64,000 nt of DNA. It comes from Gemmatimonadetes bacterium T265 (GTDB lineage: Bacteria; Gemmatimonadota; Gemmatimonadetes; Gemmatimonadales; Gemmatimonadaceae). Below the pieces are notes generated by a model. The model was given only the letters and a program-made list of their open reading frames with translations. It was not told where the DNA came from and did no database searches. The position numbers were made by a program, and so were the translations under genes. Where the stretch lies: the NCBI GenBank assembly GCA_019973575.1, contig BPUI01000002.1, forward strand, positions 1,116,001 through 1,180,000. The letters are read 5' to 3'. Positions 5,642 through 31,379 of the stretch are shown here, one piece after another; the stretch's first letter is position 1, and every line of letters starts with the position of its first letter.

Positions 5642-6266
5642 AGTCGTCGCGGTTGCGGAGCGCGTAGCTCAGCCCCTCGAGCTCCATCGCCATGTTCACG
5701 GTCTTCAGCGTCACGCCCGGCGGCACCTGGACCTGTGCCGGCGCGAAGTTGAGAATCGCCGTGATGCCGGCGCGCACGAGCCGGTCGACCTCCGGCTGCA
5801 CGTCGTCGGCGGGGATCGCGAGGACGGCGATGTCCGGCCGTTCGCGGGCCGTATCGGCTTCGAGGTCGGCGATCGGGCGGACGACCTGGCCGTCCCACGA
5901 GCTCCCGATCTTGCGCGGGTCGTTGTCGTAGACGGCGATCACGCGAAAGCCGCGCTGGGCGAAGCCGCGGTACGTCGACAGCGCCGAACCGATCTTCCCG
6001 GCGCCGACGATCACCACCCTCCACTCGCGGCCGAGTCCCAGGATGTCCTGGAGCTTGGCGGTGAGGTCCGCGACCGAGTAGCCGAGCCCGCGCGTGCCGA
6101 ACGACCCGAAGAACGACAGGTCCTTGCGAACCTGCGCCGACGTCGTGCCCGCATAATGTGCAAGGTCCTCGCTCGAGGTCGTCGTGTGACCCCGCGCCGC
6201 ATGCTCTTCGAGGTAGCGCAGGTAGACCGAGAGCCGGCGGACGGTCGAATCGGCGATGTGTTTCAC
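5640..6266 (-). CDS. rex: Redox-sensing transcriptional repressor Rex
   Basis: 208 residues: N-terminal winged helix (residues about 5-80, with SAQVRKDLSFFGSFG, a hallmark of Rex) and a Rossmann NAD(H)-binding domain with GAGKIGSAL near residue 90, then a C-terminal swapped helix. Rex dimers bind DNA when NAD+ is high and release when NADH rises. Starts at GTG 6266. A near-ideal Rex operator sits at 6315-6332, 49 bp upstream and overlapping the candidate -10 (TAACTT on the minus strand), so the gene is very likely autoregulated. The NadR-like kinase gene follows without a gap, which links NADH/NAD sensing with a predicted NAD precursor kinase. Confidence 0.95.
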   Translation of the reverse strand: MKHIADSTVRRLSVYLRYLEEHAARGHTTTSSEDLAHYAGTTSAQVRKDLSFFGSFGTRGLGYSVADLTAKLQDILGLGREWRVVIVGAGKIGSALSTYRGFAQRGFRVIAVYDNDPRKIGSSWDGQVVRPIADLEADTARERPDIAVLAIPADDVQPEVDRLVRAGITAILNFAPAQVQVPPGVTLKTVNMAMELEGLSYALRNRDD

Positions 6267-6313
6267 GGAGCGCGGGAGGTCGGGACGGCCACGAACGGCG
6301 GGCTCGTCCCGAG

Positions 6314-6333
6314 CTTGTGAAATCGTTCACAAG
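6314..6333. promoter_or_regulatory. Rex operator (palindrome)
   Basis: CTTGTGAA-ATCG-TTCACAAG is an 8-bp perfect inverted repeat around ATCG, almost identical to the Rex consensus TTGTGAAnnnnTTCACAA. It overlaps the minus-strand candidate -10 of rex (TAACTT, 6331-6336). The arginine deiminase gene on the other strand starts about 90 bp away, so effects on that promoter are possible but less certain. Confidence 0.9.
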
Positions 6334-6422
6334 TTAGCCGTGTGTCGACGCGGCTTCCACCCGCCCTGCGCGGTCGCGCCCCGCGGCCGTCCGGCACGAG
6401 CCGCTCGGCTACCTTCCCCGGG

Positions 6423-7652
6423 ATGTCAGTGCACGTGGGTTCCGAAATCGGCGCGCTCCGGCGCGTGCTCGTCCACACGCCGGGGCCGGAGCTGCTCGCC
6501 GTCACGCCGAGTACGCGCGAGGATTTCCTCTACGACGACATCATCGACCGTGAGAGCGCCCGGCGCGAGCACGAACAGCTCGTGGCGGTCCTGGAGCGGT
6601 ACGCGGAGGTGCTGCACCTCCGCGACCTGCTCACCGGCGTGCTCGAGGACGGCGACACGCGCGCGGCGCTTCTACACGAAGCGCTCCGCGTTCCGCTCGT
6701 CGCTCCGCTCGCCGACGACCTGAGCACGCTCGACGCCGACGCGCTGGCCGGCGCGCTGATCACCGGGCACGCCGCCGAACCGGGACCGCTTGCGCGCGCG
6801 CTGAACGAGCCGACCTACGCGCTGCCGCCGCTGCCGAACCTGTTCTTCACCCGCGACACGGCCATGGTGGTCGGCAACCACGTCCTCCTCGGCGCGATGC
6901 GCTACGGCGCGCGGTGGTCGGAGGGCCTGATCATGCGCTACGTGTTCGACCATCATCCGGCGCTCGCGAACTGTGGCATTTTGTACGACGGCTCCGGCGA
7001 GCGGCGGCACGGCCACACGCTCGAAGGCGGCGACGTGCACGTCCTCGCGGACGACACGGTCATCATCGGCTTCTCCGAGCGTTCGACGCCGGCGGCGATC
7101 GACCACCTATGCGAGCTGTTGTTCGCGCGCGGCGGCGTCGAGCGCGTGATCGTCGTCGTGATGCCCGCGGAGCAGACGGCCATCCATCTGGACATGATCT
7201 TCACGCAGGTCGGTCGCGAGACGTGCGTCGTCTACCCGCCGCACTTCCTCGGCCCGAAGCGGCTGCCCGTGCTGCTCCGCCACCGCGGCGACACGACGCT
7301 CGCGACGATGCCCGACGTGTTCGCCGCCCTGCGCGCGTGCGGCCTCTCGCTCGAACCCGTCCTGTGCGGCGGGACGCGTCGCGCGGCGCAGGAGCGCGAG
7401 CAGTGGGCGTCGGGGTGCAACTTCGTCGCGGTCCGCCCGGGGGTGGTGCTCTCGTACGAACGGAACGGCGAGACCCTGCGCGCGCTCGCGGACGCCGGAT
7501 TCGCCGTCGTCCGTTCGGCCGACGTGGTCGCGCCGGACGCTCCGCCGCCCGACGACCGTCCGACGGTCATCACGATCGCGGGTGGGGAACTCGTCCGCGG
7601 CGGCGGGGGGCCGCGCTGCATGACGTGCCCGATCGAGCGCGACGGTCCGTGA
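6423..7652 (+). CDS. arcA: Arginine deiminase
   Basis: 409 residues, the usual family length. It hydrolyses L-arginine to citrulline and ammonia, the first step of the ATP-yielding arginine deiminase pathway. Guanidino-enzyme motifs: FFTRD near residue 140, HTLEGGDVH near 200, HLDMIFT near 255, and the C-terminal GGGPRCMTCPI containing the catalytic cysteine at about residue 399. The ATG at 6423 matches the conserved N-terminus; a TACCTT box ends 7 nt upstream, so the message could be leaderless. It is divergent from rex. Ornithine carbamoyltransferase and carbamate kinase, the later steps, are not in this window. The stop overlaps the GTG start of the exonuclease gene. Confidence 0.94.
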   Translation: MSVHVGSEIGALRRVLVHTPGPELLAVTPSTREDFLYDDIIDRESARREHEQLVAVLERYAEVLHLRDLLTGVLEDGDTRAALLHEALRVPLVAPLADDLSTLDADALAGALITGHAAEPGPLARALNEPTYALPPLPNLFFTRDTAMVVGNHVLLGAMRYGARWSEGLIMRYVFDHHPALANCGILYDGSGERRHGHTLEGGDVHVLADDTVIIGFSERSTPAAIDHLCELLFARGGVERVIVVVMPAEQTAIHLDMIFTQVGRETCVVYPPHFLGPKRLPVLLRHRGDTTLATMPDVFAALRACGLSLEPVLCGGTRRAAQEREQWASGCNFVAVRPGVVLSYERNGETLRALADAGFAVVRSADVVAPDAPPPDDRPTVITIAGGELVRGGGGPRCMTCPIERDGP

Positions 7653-8707
7653 CCTCGACGCCGCATCCCGAGCCCGCCCGTCGTGACGCGGGCGGCGTCA
7701 ACGTCCGGTCCGTCGACACGCTGCTGGTCGAGCGCGCGCGCGACTTCCTGCGGGGCGGGCCGGCCACGTCCGCGGAGCTCGTCGCGCGCGTCTGTCAGCT
7801 CCCGTCGGTCGCGCCCGCGATGGCCGAGCGCCTCGCCGCCGAACTCCTCGGCACGCACCCGGACTTCGCGCGCGGAGCGGACGGCCGCTGGACGTTAGGC
7901 GGCGCGCCGCGCGTGCCGACCTTCGCGGAGTGGCGCGCGGCGCGCGAGGCCGCGCCCGCGGCGGGCCCGCGGCACGCGCACGCGGCGCACGAGCGCGACG
8001 CCGCGCCGGCCCTCCCGGGCGACGACGACCCGCTCGACGCGCTGCCGTACGTCGTCGTCGACGTCGAGACGACGGGCGGGAGCCCGGAGAACGGGCACCG
8101 CATCACCGAGATCGCCGCCGTCGTGGTCGAGGGCGGGGAGGTGCGCGACGTCTACGAGACGCTCGTCAACCCGGAACGCGGGATCCCGCCCGAGATCATG
8201 CGGCTGACGGGGATCTCGTGGGAGATGGTGCGCGACAAGGCGCCGTTCGCGGGCGTGTGCGACGACGTCGTCGGCGCAATCGCCGGTCGCGTTTTCGTCG
8301 CGCACAACGCCGCGTTCGATTGGCGGTTCGTCCGCGCGGAGGTCGCGCGGACGTCCGGGCGGCAGCTCGACGGCCGGCGCCTCTGTACGGTGCGGCTCGC
8401 CCGCAAGCTGCTCCCGCAGCTCCGCAGCCGCTCGCTCGGCTACGTGGCCGAGTGGTACGGCGCGACGAAGTTCGCCGAGACGTACTTCGAGGGGCGGCAC
8501 GGGCGGGGGCGGCCGTGGCGACACAGCGCGGCGGGCGACGCGGTCGCGACCGCGCACTGTCTTATCCGGCTCCTGGGCGACGCCGCGGACCACGGCGTGA
8601 CGACGTGGGGGGCGATGGACCGCTGGCTCGCGGGTGGGACCGGGACCGCGCGACGTCGCCGGCGCAGCGCGATGCCGTCGGGCGTGAAGCGGGACCCGGA
8701 GGCGTGA
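7649..8707 (+). CDS. DnaQ-like 3-5 exonuclease (DNA polymerase III epsilon family) with N-terminal helical domain
   Basis: 352 residues. Residues about 20-75 form a short helical, winged-helix-like segment; residues about 130-320 are a DEDDh exonuclease with ExoI VVVDVETTGG (about 136), ExoII HNAAFDWRF (about 218) and ExoIII HSAAGDA (about 292). The C-terminal 30 residues are basic. These motifs match the epsilon proofreading family, but the extra N-terminal domain and the position away from polIII genes suggest an accessory exonuclease of the type found fused to other domains in PolC or DinG-like proteins. The GTG start overlaps the arcA stop (GTGA), so it is probably cotranscribed with arcA; I see no functional reason for that pairing. 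Confidence 0.85.
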   Translation: MTSTPHPEPARRDAGGVNVRSVDTLLVERARDFLRGGPATSAELVARVCQLPSVAPAMAERLAAELLGTHPDFARGADGRWTLGGAPRVPTFAEWRAAREAAPAAGPRHAHAAHERDAAPALPGDDDPLDALPYVVVDVETTGGSPENGHRITEIAAVVVEGGEVRDVYETLVNPERGIPPEIMRLTGISWEMVRDKAPFAGVCDDVVGAIAGRVFVAHNAAFDWRFVRAEVARTSGRQLDGRRLCTVRLARKLLPQLRSRSLGYVAEWYGATKFAETYFEGRHGRGRPWRHSAAGDAVATAHCLIRLLGDAADHGVTTWGAMDRWLAGGTGTARRRRRSAMPSGVKRDPEA

Positions 8708-29254: not shown

Positions 29255-29337
29255 GCCCGGATGGCGAAATCGGTAGACGCATGGGTCTTAAAAACCCTGG
29301 CCCTCTGGGCGTGCGGGTTCGAGTCCCGCTCCGGGCA
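29255..29337 (+). tRNA. tRNA-Leu (UAA)
   Basis: 83 nt, class II with long variable arm: acceptor GCCCGGA/TCCGGGC, D-arm with GGCGAAATCGGTAGACGC, anticodon loop CTTAAAA with TAA at 29289-29291, T-arm GGTTCGAGTCC, A discriminator, no encoded CCA. It decodes the rare TTA codon (and TTG), nearly all of whose uses in this window are TTA-GGC. Separated from tRNA-Gly by 39 nt with a CCTTG/CAAGG mini-stem, so the two are probably processed from one transcript. Confidence 0.97.
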
Positions 29338-29344
29338 TGACGTA

Positions 29345-29377
29345 GGGGGCCCGCGACGACGGTCGTCGCGGGCCCCC
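29345..29377. terminator. Bidirectional terminator-like hairpin after the tRNA pair
   Basis: 15-bp perfect stem GGGGGCCCGCGACGA / TCGTCGCGGGCCCCC with a CGG loop, between the tRNAs and a convergent gene. No U-run follows, so it is GC-driven termination or RNA end stabilisation. Confidence 0.6.
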
Positions 29378-29406: not shown

Positions 29407-30324
29407 TCAGAAGGGAAGGTCGTCGTCGTCGATCGGGCTGCCTAACGGCGCCGCGTCGAACCGCGGCTCGGCCGCGACCGCCGTCGTCGCGCGCGACCGC
29501 GAGGCGGCGCGCCCGTTCCCGCGCGCCGCCGCACTCCCATCCCCCGGCGCGTCCGCGGGCGCGCCCGCCGGCTCCGCGGACTCGCCGGGGCGTGGCGGCC
29601 AGATCACGCCGTCGCAGCTCCGGTCGCGGCACTTGAAGTCCGGCGCCTTCGGGTTGCGCTTGGTCAGGCGATTGTCCCACATCCGACCGCTGCACTTCGG
29701 GCACGACGGATCGTCGCCCGCGGCGTTCGAGGAGGACGACTCGCGCGACGCGTCGTCCGACGTGAGCTCCGGCGCGGCGTCGACGACCGCCGGACGAGCG
29801 GGCGCCGGTGCGGTCGCGCGTCGCGCAATCGCCGCGGCGGCGCGGCGCGCGTCCGCGGCCGCCGGCGCGTCGAGCGGCTCGGCCGCGTCCGGGCCGTCGA
29901 CGACGACCCAGTTCGGCTCGCGCCCGTTCAGCTCGTGCCCGATGCCGAACCGGACGGCCGCGCGCGCGAGCGCGTCGTTCGCCGCGGACTTGTAATCCGC
30001 GCCGGTCCCGACGTCCTCGCGGATCACGCCGAGGATCTGAAGGCGCGCCTTGAAGGCGCATTCCTGCGGCTCGCCCGCGCGGGCCGGGAGCGACGGGAGA
30101 AGCTCGAGCGTGAGGTCCCACTCGCCAGGAACGACGCGGTCGAGGCGCTCGCGGACCGCGTTGGCGCCCGAATGGGCGACGTAACGTGCGTACCAGCCGC
30201 CGTCGCGCGCGACGGGCGGGCCCTCTTGGCGCCACGCGATCGCGTCGGCGTCGAGGGGCGCGGCGAGCGCGGACCAGAGGTTCGACTTGTCGAGGGAGGT
30301 GGGGGCGTCGTGGCGTGCGATCAT
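29407..30324 (-). CDS. Rad52-like annealing domain with zinc ribbon and SSB-type acidic C-terminus
   Basis: 305 residues from ATG 30324. Residues about 15-150 match the Rad52/Rad22 single-strand annealing family: GGWYARYVAHSGANAVRERL, CAFKARLQILGVIRED, then YKSAANDALARAAVRFGIG. A disordered Ala-rich linker leads to a zinc-ribbon-like CxxC...C...C (cysteines near residues 208, 211, 232 and 237). The last residues are SPIDDDDLPF, matching the conserved acidic tip of SSB proteins (DDDIPF) that recruits SSB-interacting partners. Each part is recognisable; the combination is unusual. Known Rad52-family proteins anneal complementary ssDNA; no recombinase or phage gene is nearby. The GCCTAAC word lies in the tail-coding region. 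Confidence 0.72.
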   Translation of the reverse strand: MIARHDAPTSLDKSNLWSALAAPLDADAIAWRQEGPPVARDGGWYARYVAHSGANAVRERLDRVVPGEWDLTLELLPSLPARAGEPQECAFKARLQILGVIREDVGTGADYKSAANDALARAAVRFGIGHELNGREPNWVVVDGPDAAEPLDAPAAADARRAAAAIARRATAPAPARPAVVDAAPELTSDDASRESSSSNAAGDDPSCPKCSGRMWDNRLTKRNPKAPDFKCRDRSCDGVIWPPRPGESAEPAGAPADAPGDGSAAARGNGRAASRSRATTAVAAEPRFDAAPLGSPIDDDDLPF

Positions 30325-30473: not shown

Positions 30474-31100
30474 TCAGCGACGGCGGCCGGCTCCGGCGCG
30501 CTGCGCCTTCAGTTCGGCGTGCACGTCGCGGACGGCGACGCAGCTCGCGCCGTGCACGCAGTACCAGCCGTGGCGGTCGAAGAACACCAGGTGCACCGTC
30601 GCCGTCCCGGCGACCTGCTCGTCGACGCGGTAGAGCTGTTCGACCGAGGTGTTCGGGCCACAGCGCGCGCACGGGTCGAGCGCTTTGATGCGGACGAGAC
30701 GCGTGACCGGGGCGGCGCTCCGCGCGCGCGCCGTCGTCGTGTTCGACCGCTTTGCCGACTTCGTCGGACGGGGGGTCGGAGTCACAACCGGAGCCTTCGC
30801 CGGCCGCACGGCCTTCACAACGGTCTTCTTGGCCGCGACGACGACGACCGTCGATCGCGTCGACGCTGGCCGGGTAACCGCCGGCGTCGACGGTTTCGAG
30901 CGCGTCGGCTTTGGTGCGGAACGGAGTGGACCGGTTACGCCCCTTCCCGCCGCCGTCGCGGCAGCGGGGCGTCCAACCTCGCGCGATGCCGCCGACGCGA
31001 CCGGCTTCTTTGCGATCGGCTCGCCACGACCGCGCACTGGCGGCGTGCCGACCGACGACTTCGAAGAGGTACGGCGTGACGCGGAGCGCGTGGACGGCAC
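30474..31100 (-). CDS. Basic tail protein with C-terminal zinc-binding domain, unknown
   Basis: 208 residues from GTG 31100. Residues 1-135 are low complexity, rich in Ala, Pro, Lys, Arg, Ser and Thr (for example AKKTVVKAVRPAKAPVV), resembling histone-H1-like DNA-compacting tails. A compact C-terminal domain follows with cysteines at about 144, 147, 181 and 187 (LDPCARCG and YCVHGASC), a likely zinc-binding fold. I do not recognise a family. It is on the same strand as the Rad52-like gene, 150 bp upstream, so they may be cotranscribed. A DNA- or RNA-binding role is inferred only from composition. Confidence 0.6.
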   Translation of the reverse strand: MPSTRSASRRTSSKSSVGTPPVRGRGEPIAKKPVASAASREVGRPAAATAAGRGVTGPLRSAPKPTRSKPSTPAVTRPASTRSTVVVVAAKKTVVKAVRPAKAPVVTPTPRPTKSAKRSNTTTARARSAAPVTRLVRIKALDPCARCGPNTSVEQLYRVDEQVAGTATVHLVFFDRHGWYCVHGASCVAVRDVHAELKAQRAGAGRRR

Positions 31101-31379
31101 GTCGGGAAGGGCAGAAGAACGATGACCGAAACGGACCGAATATTACCCGAAGATCGCGCGGCGGTCAACGTGCCAGCGGGTCGGAATTCGTACCCCGGTC
31201 GTGCCAAGTAAGTTGCGGCCGCGCAAGAGGTTACCGGCCACTCGCAGTGTTCGCGGCAACCCGGCGGCCACGCGACGCGGGCCTCGTGCGTCGCGAACTC
31301 GGCACTATCCGCGCGCGCCGTCGTGTGGCGCGCGTCGTGCAACCCGGCGGCGCGATCACCCCTACACCCGAGGACTGCC

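Follow-up and report, generated by a model that had tools for sequence, protein, structure and literature searches.

The Rad52-like gene and its surroundings

The DNA that we have analysed (the window) is a stretch of 64,000 nucleotides from the 5.6-Mb genome of Gemmatimonadetes bacterium T265, a soil bacterium of the family Gemmatimonadaceae. It carries a gene for a protein with three recognizable parts, a Rad52-type annealing core, a four-cysteine ribbon and an acidic C-terminal tip of the kind found in the single-stranded DNA-binding protein SSB. The coordinates of these parts and of the other features of the locus are collected in Table 1.

Table 1. Features at the Rad52-like locus (positions are those of the window; residues are those of the Rad52-like protein)
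Feature	Residues	Positions	Strand	Description
tRNA-Leu(taa)		29255..29337	plus	Fixed landmark downstream of the Rad52-ribbon-tip gene in relatives
Inverted repeat		29345..29377		Perfect 15-bp repeat, 3-base loop, GC-rich; between tRNA-Leu and the stop of the convergent Rad52 gene
Rad52-ribbon-tip gene	1-305	29407..30324	minus	305 aa; ATG at 30324, stop at 29407; codon-model gene call; orthologues
SSB-type acidic tip PIDDDDLPF	297-305	29410..29436	minus	Conserved in 21/24 host copies
C4 zinc-ribbon-like module	206-246	29587..29709	minus	CPKCSGRMWDNRLTKRNPKAPDFKCRDRSCDGVIWPP; 4 Cys kept in all aligned copies
Rad52-type annealing core	12-175	29800..30291	minus	PHROG 1097, orthologues over Pfam cut-off, fold match
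Residue 120	120	29965..29967	minus	Ala in window copy, Lys in all other aligned copies
Partner gene		30474..31100	minus	Start 31100 or 30818; basic N-terminal tail; Cys/His domain 30522-30707
Sigma-70-like promoter match TTGACC-17-TAATAT		31140..31168	minus	Upstream of the partner gene; consensus match only

An earlier note, made from the letters of this DNA, had the reading frame, strand and coordinates right and gave the C terminus as DDDDLPF, which is indeed how the tip reads. The ribbon that it placed at about residues 208-237 was confirmed as well (cysteines C208, C211, C232 and C237), and with it the overall architecture of core, ribbon and tip. The frame is open, with codon usage typical of coding genes. 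The stretches that join the core to the ribbon and the ribbon to the tip are disordered and contain much Ala, Pro and Asp, and these segments of the AlphaFold model are mostly of low confidence, as expected for flexible linkers.

In relatives of several genera the gene is found at one site, flanked on one side by tRNA-Gly and tRNA-Leu(taa). On the other side, in five of the compared regions, lies the gene of an M20 peptidase together with asd, lysC, dapB and dapA (of the other compared regions, one belongs to a contig that ends at the gene, one has intervening genes and one was without proper gene calling). A core-ribbon protein was present in 8 of 34 other members of the family (first draw), and in some of the relatives without a Rad52 gene the tRNA and the M20 gene are still close together, so that, judged by gene order, gain or loss of the gene has taken place at a fixed site. 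The earlier remark that no phage genes surround it holds. The neighbors are chromosomal housekeeping genes, the same ones in relatives, and a prophage origin of the locus was rejected because of this conserved synteny. In three related phage records (possibly fragments) the 3' end of the tRNA-Leu was not found as an attachment site. The inverted repeat between the tRNA and the Rad52 gene is possibly the hairpin of a shared terminator, of a type without a T run.

Directly upstream of the Rad52 gene, and in the same direction, lies what we call the partner gene. Its product combines a tail, basic and often rich in Lys, Ala and Pro, by which it possibly binds DNA, with a domain of about 60 residues (CGxGTSVxxLYRVDE...HLVFFDRHGWYCEHGRxCxAV), and it has no Pfam match. 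The partner gene was present in 28 of the 28 ribbon-Rad52 genomes listed from the draw on the phylum, and the gap between it and the Rad52 start ranges from -4 to 100 bases in 23 loci (149 in the window). The promoter search gave two overlapping matches where 0.1 were expected, and such a promoter-like site before the partner gene is consistent with a two-gene operon. A strictly obligate pair was rejected, since some relatives have the partner gene and no Rad52 gene; in L417, L418, L420 and L427 it lies beside the M20 gene. The one pattern tried on viral contigs gave no relative of the partner gene, and a role in anti-phage defence was rejected, there being no PADLOC match. In genome G015 a second Rad52-like gene, with neither ribbon nor tip, adjoins a distant homologue of the partner gene (L426, 4954-5742).

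Profile and fold of the annealing core

The N-terminal domain had been described in the earlier note as of Rad52/Rad22 type. With the corresponding Pfam profile (Rad52_Rad22, PF04098) the window protein itself scores 14.4 bits and falls short of the cut-off (20.3), which its orthologues pass (E 3.7e-10 and 4.4e-9; 37-40 bits); the phage homologue L116 scores 42 bits. The window protein does match PHROG 1097, a family of Erf-like annealing proteins (E 3e-9). The AlphaFold model, based on 25 sequences and with a core pLDDT of about 90, has the RAD52 fold, matching human RAD52 (Z 11.6 over 129 residues), yeast Mgm101 (Z 10.5) and phage Sak (Z 10.0), and a Foldseek search with it gave a RAD52-fold match at 8.6e-6. 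The domain assignment is therefore borne out by the model and by the orthologues. Phage records and genome contigs yielded nothing when searched with the single sequence of the window protein, because the protein is divergent, but profiles succeeded; likewise, no relative of the core was found by alignment to PDB sequences, while the comparison of folds did find some.

The protein thus has the core fold of the annealing domain that characterizes the Rad52/Rad22 family (human RAD52, Mgm101, DdrA), with orthologues that match the family profile. Chromosomal members in bacteria were known before, namely DdrA of Deinococcus (PMC10140301). Compared with these known members, the window protein adds a C4 ribbon and an SSB-type tip, and it lacks a lysine of the core that is otherwise nearly invariant.

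The ribbon and the tip in hosts and phages

The sole SSB detected in the genome ends in DDDDDLPF, and its last seven residues are those of the window protein. Of the SSBs of Gemmatimonadaceae, all 13 complete ends that were read (from the window genome and twelve relatives) finish in DDDLPF. Among the host copies of the Rad52-ribbon protein, an end of the form acidic-x-[ILV]PF was kept in 21 of 24 (the exceptions are L079, L097 and L098), which answers the question of its conservation in orthologues raised by the earlier note. The tip is not indispensable, since it is missing from these three copies and from the ribbon-bearing phage homologue L116. The earlier term SSB/Rad52 hybrid fits in part: the tip is identical to that of the host SSB and stands, as in SSB (PF00436), on a disordered tail, but it is attached to a Rad52 core and a ribbon instead of an OB fold, and no SSB domain was matched by Pfam in the window protein at E up to 1.

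Selection differs along the protein. Pairwise dN/dS values are about 0.03-0.13 for the core, between 0.15 and more than 1 for the linkers, and mostly 0.01-0.08 for the ribbon, where the tip-less pair L097/L098 reaches 0.21. By these ratios the core and the ribbon of the family evolve under strong purifying selection.

The ribbon, although conserved with its four cysteines, matched Pfam zinc-ribbon models only below their cut-offs (for example zf_Rg, 20.2 against 25.5 bits; Zn_ribbon_Top1, 16.8 against 32), and comparison with PDB sequences gave no significant relative. It is, then, a conserved domain that scores above the cut-off of no current Pfam model. A profile of it found matches in 36 of 395 genomes of the phylum, with one significant place in the window genome. 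Small stand-alone host proteins in several genera (L029-L032, L094, L100-L109) consist of two ribbons and an SSB-type tip with no annealing core; the predicted structure of such a double-ribbon protein was poor (pLDDT 56).

The same profile matched at least 101 viral contigs, 80 of which were read. The carriers in phages and prophages belong to the ERF, Rad52, RecT and Sak4-like AAA_24 families, and to PHROG families without an assigned function, and the majority of these viral ribbon proteins have an SSB-type tip at the end. After clustering of the viral ribbon proteins at 70% identity, a strict pattern detected the tip in 16 of 31 clusters, but in only 4 of 124 distinct tails from viral ERF/Rad52 proteins that lack the ribbon. 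The Fisher p of 4e-10 overstates the evidence, as the sequences are relatives of one another and each set was fetched in its own way, but the contrast is still large. Of 43 ribbon-bearing viral records 4 had a PF00436 gene, against 13 of 48 controls (p 0.03). As the records may be fragments and are related, this does no more than hint that phages with ribbon and tip rely on the SSB contacts of the host.

Several individual cases deserve mention. Sak4-like and RecT proteins of prophages with the same ribbon and tip are encoded at L033 9902-10966, L034 6971-8245 and L037 9668-10942, the latter two contigs having two RecT gene copies each. In L036 a prophage Rad52 without a tip lies near an 87-aa protein ending in GADDDLPF (6260-6523 and 7658-8329), so the tip is possibly supplied in trans there. 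The closest phage relatives without a ribbon, L288 and L289, have the Rad52 core and a different C-terminal domain (PFGKFKG...); L288 has the tip DLDLPF and L289 ends in DDGFAF.

The link of bacterial Rad52-type proteins to phages, asserted in the earlier note, is thus visible in the shared module, yet the window gene itself resides at a chromosomal site. It resembles the phage Erf/Sak-type proteins (PHROG 1097, PHROG 155/2324, ERF PF04404) in the annealing role attributed to the family and in the ribbon and tip that many phage members have, and it differs from them in being fixed in a host chromosome with a partner gene. Since the module is common to phage annealing proteins, the window gene is probably a domesticated phage recombinase. 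The recurrence of ribbon and tip on several phage annealing families suggests a portable means of docking onto the repair machinery of the cell. A wider scenario, which we put forward tentatively and hold to be rather less probable than its opposite, is that the module has been shuffled among annealers of at least two unrelated folds (Rad52/ERF/RecT and the RecA-like Sak4), turning them into SSB surrogates whose phages would need no SSB gene of their own, and that Gemmatimonadaceae have domesticated one of these annealers and would use the module alone in the double-ribbon proteins, as docking proteins.

Possible roles of the tip

SSB tails of this type recruit RecO, PriA and other proteins (PMC5928155), and both RecO and PriA are encoded in the window genome. 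The reading that we favor, with about an even chance of being right, is that of a chromosomal annealer of the Rad52 superfamily that displays the tip of the host SSB, recruits the partners of SSB and can hold them or hand over to them. The core would bind and anneal single-stranded DNA, and the flexible linker behind it would bear a putative zinc ribbon, probably adding nucleic-acid binding. The copy of the SSB tip at the end of the second flexible linker would most likely dock in the same pockets of RecO, PriA and other partners as SSB does, and factors of repair or replication restart could thereby stay at the site after SSB has been displaced.

The rule known so far is that annealing proteins recognise the tail of a separate SSB, as described for Sak4 (PMC5928155) and RecT (PMC10711431), and this recognition limits the hosts in which annealers work for recombineering. 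Sak4 of phage HK620, for instance, requires the last six residues of its SSB (PMC5928155). There too an annealing protein is coupled to an SSB-type tail, but the tail is that of a separate SSB to which Sak4 binds, whereas the annealer of the window carries its own. Annealers with a tail of their own reverse the known relation, and we found none described in the open literature, to which the search was mostly confined, with most of the subscription literature outside it. Should the tip indeed recruit partners, the handover from an annealer to repair and restart would have an explanation, and the tip would serve as a simple handle for fitting recombineering proteins to laboratory hosts.

It might be argued that the tail is just an acidic end of biased composition with no SSB-like role, as the linkers of the protein, too, show disorder and an abundance of Ala, Pro and Asp. 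The [ILV]PF ending, however, is held in exact C-terminal register in the great majority of host copies behind a segment of 7 to 63 residues that cannot be aligned, it is the same as in the host SSB, and such ends are rare elsewhere: in the compared regions only 17 of 359 predicted genes encode a PF end, 15 of them ribbon-module proteins and the other two adjacent to each other in a prophage with Rad52-like genes. On these counts the tip is more than a product of chance, and a purely compositional origin seems to us highly improbable. The main rival to recruitment is an internal regulatory role. As the relation known to date is the reverse one, a tip carried by the annealer itself could have a different function, folding onto its own DNA-binding groove or SSB-tail pocket and keeping the annealer off until SSB-coated DNA displaces it. 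A built-in copy of the tail could fill the site by which proteins such as Sak4 and RecT recognise SSB (PMC5928155, PMC10711431), the acidic tail of E. coli SSB has been reported to touch its own DNA-binding site (discussed in PMC5928155), and the long flexible linkers would allow such a fold-back. Self-inhibition leaves unexplained, on the other hand, why the stand-alone double-ribbon proteins keep the tip without an annealing core, and we regard this role as unlikely.

A different possibility is that the window copy has lost annealing and is a relic, decaying or re-purposed, its ribbon and tip acting alone or the whole protein doing nothing. In the tree of cores its end branch is the longest among host copies (1.28 against a median of 0.26), and it alters 8 of 68 core positions that the other host copies keep invariant (D34E, F48Y, Y51H, T116N, F119L, K120A, Y133N and E152D), where any other host copy alters 0-3; its sub-threshold Pfam score points the same way. 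Within the motif that reads FKR in this clade, in the presumed single-stranded DNA-binding helix, the window copy has kept R121 and lost K120, both of which are present in the other copies. These two residues probably correspond to K152 and R153 of human RAD52, the former a DNA-contacting residue. The loss bears on the activity of the window copy more than on its descent. Annealing by this copy is doubtful, given the lost lysine and its position as the fastest-evolving host copy. Against decay speak the open frame with its coding-gene codon use, the ribbon, in which none of 23 invariant positions is altered, and the intact tip, and we think it improbable that the protein is a relic. Within the recruitment reading, the core of the window copy may be weakened and the ribbon and tip retained. 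In another host Rad52 copy (L071, 5407-6192) nine residues are missing beside the FKR motif, by a deletion or an assembly error.
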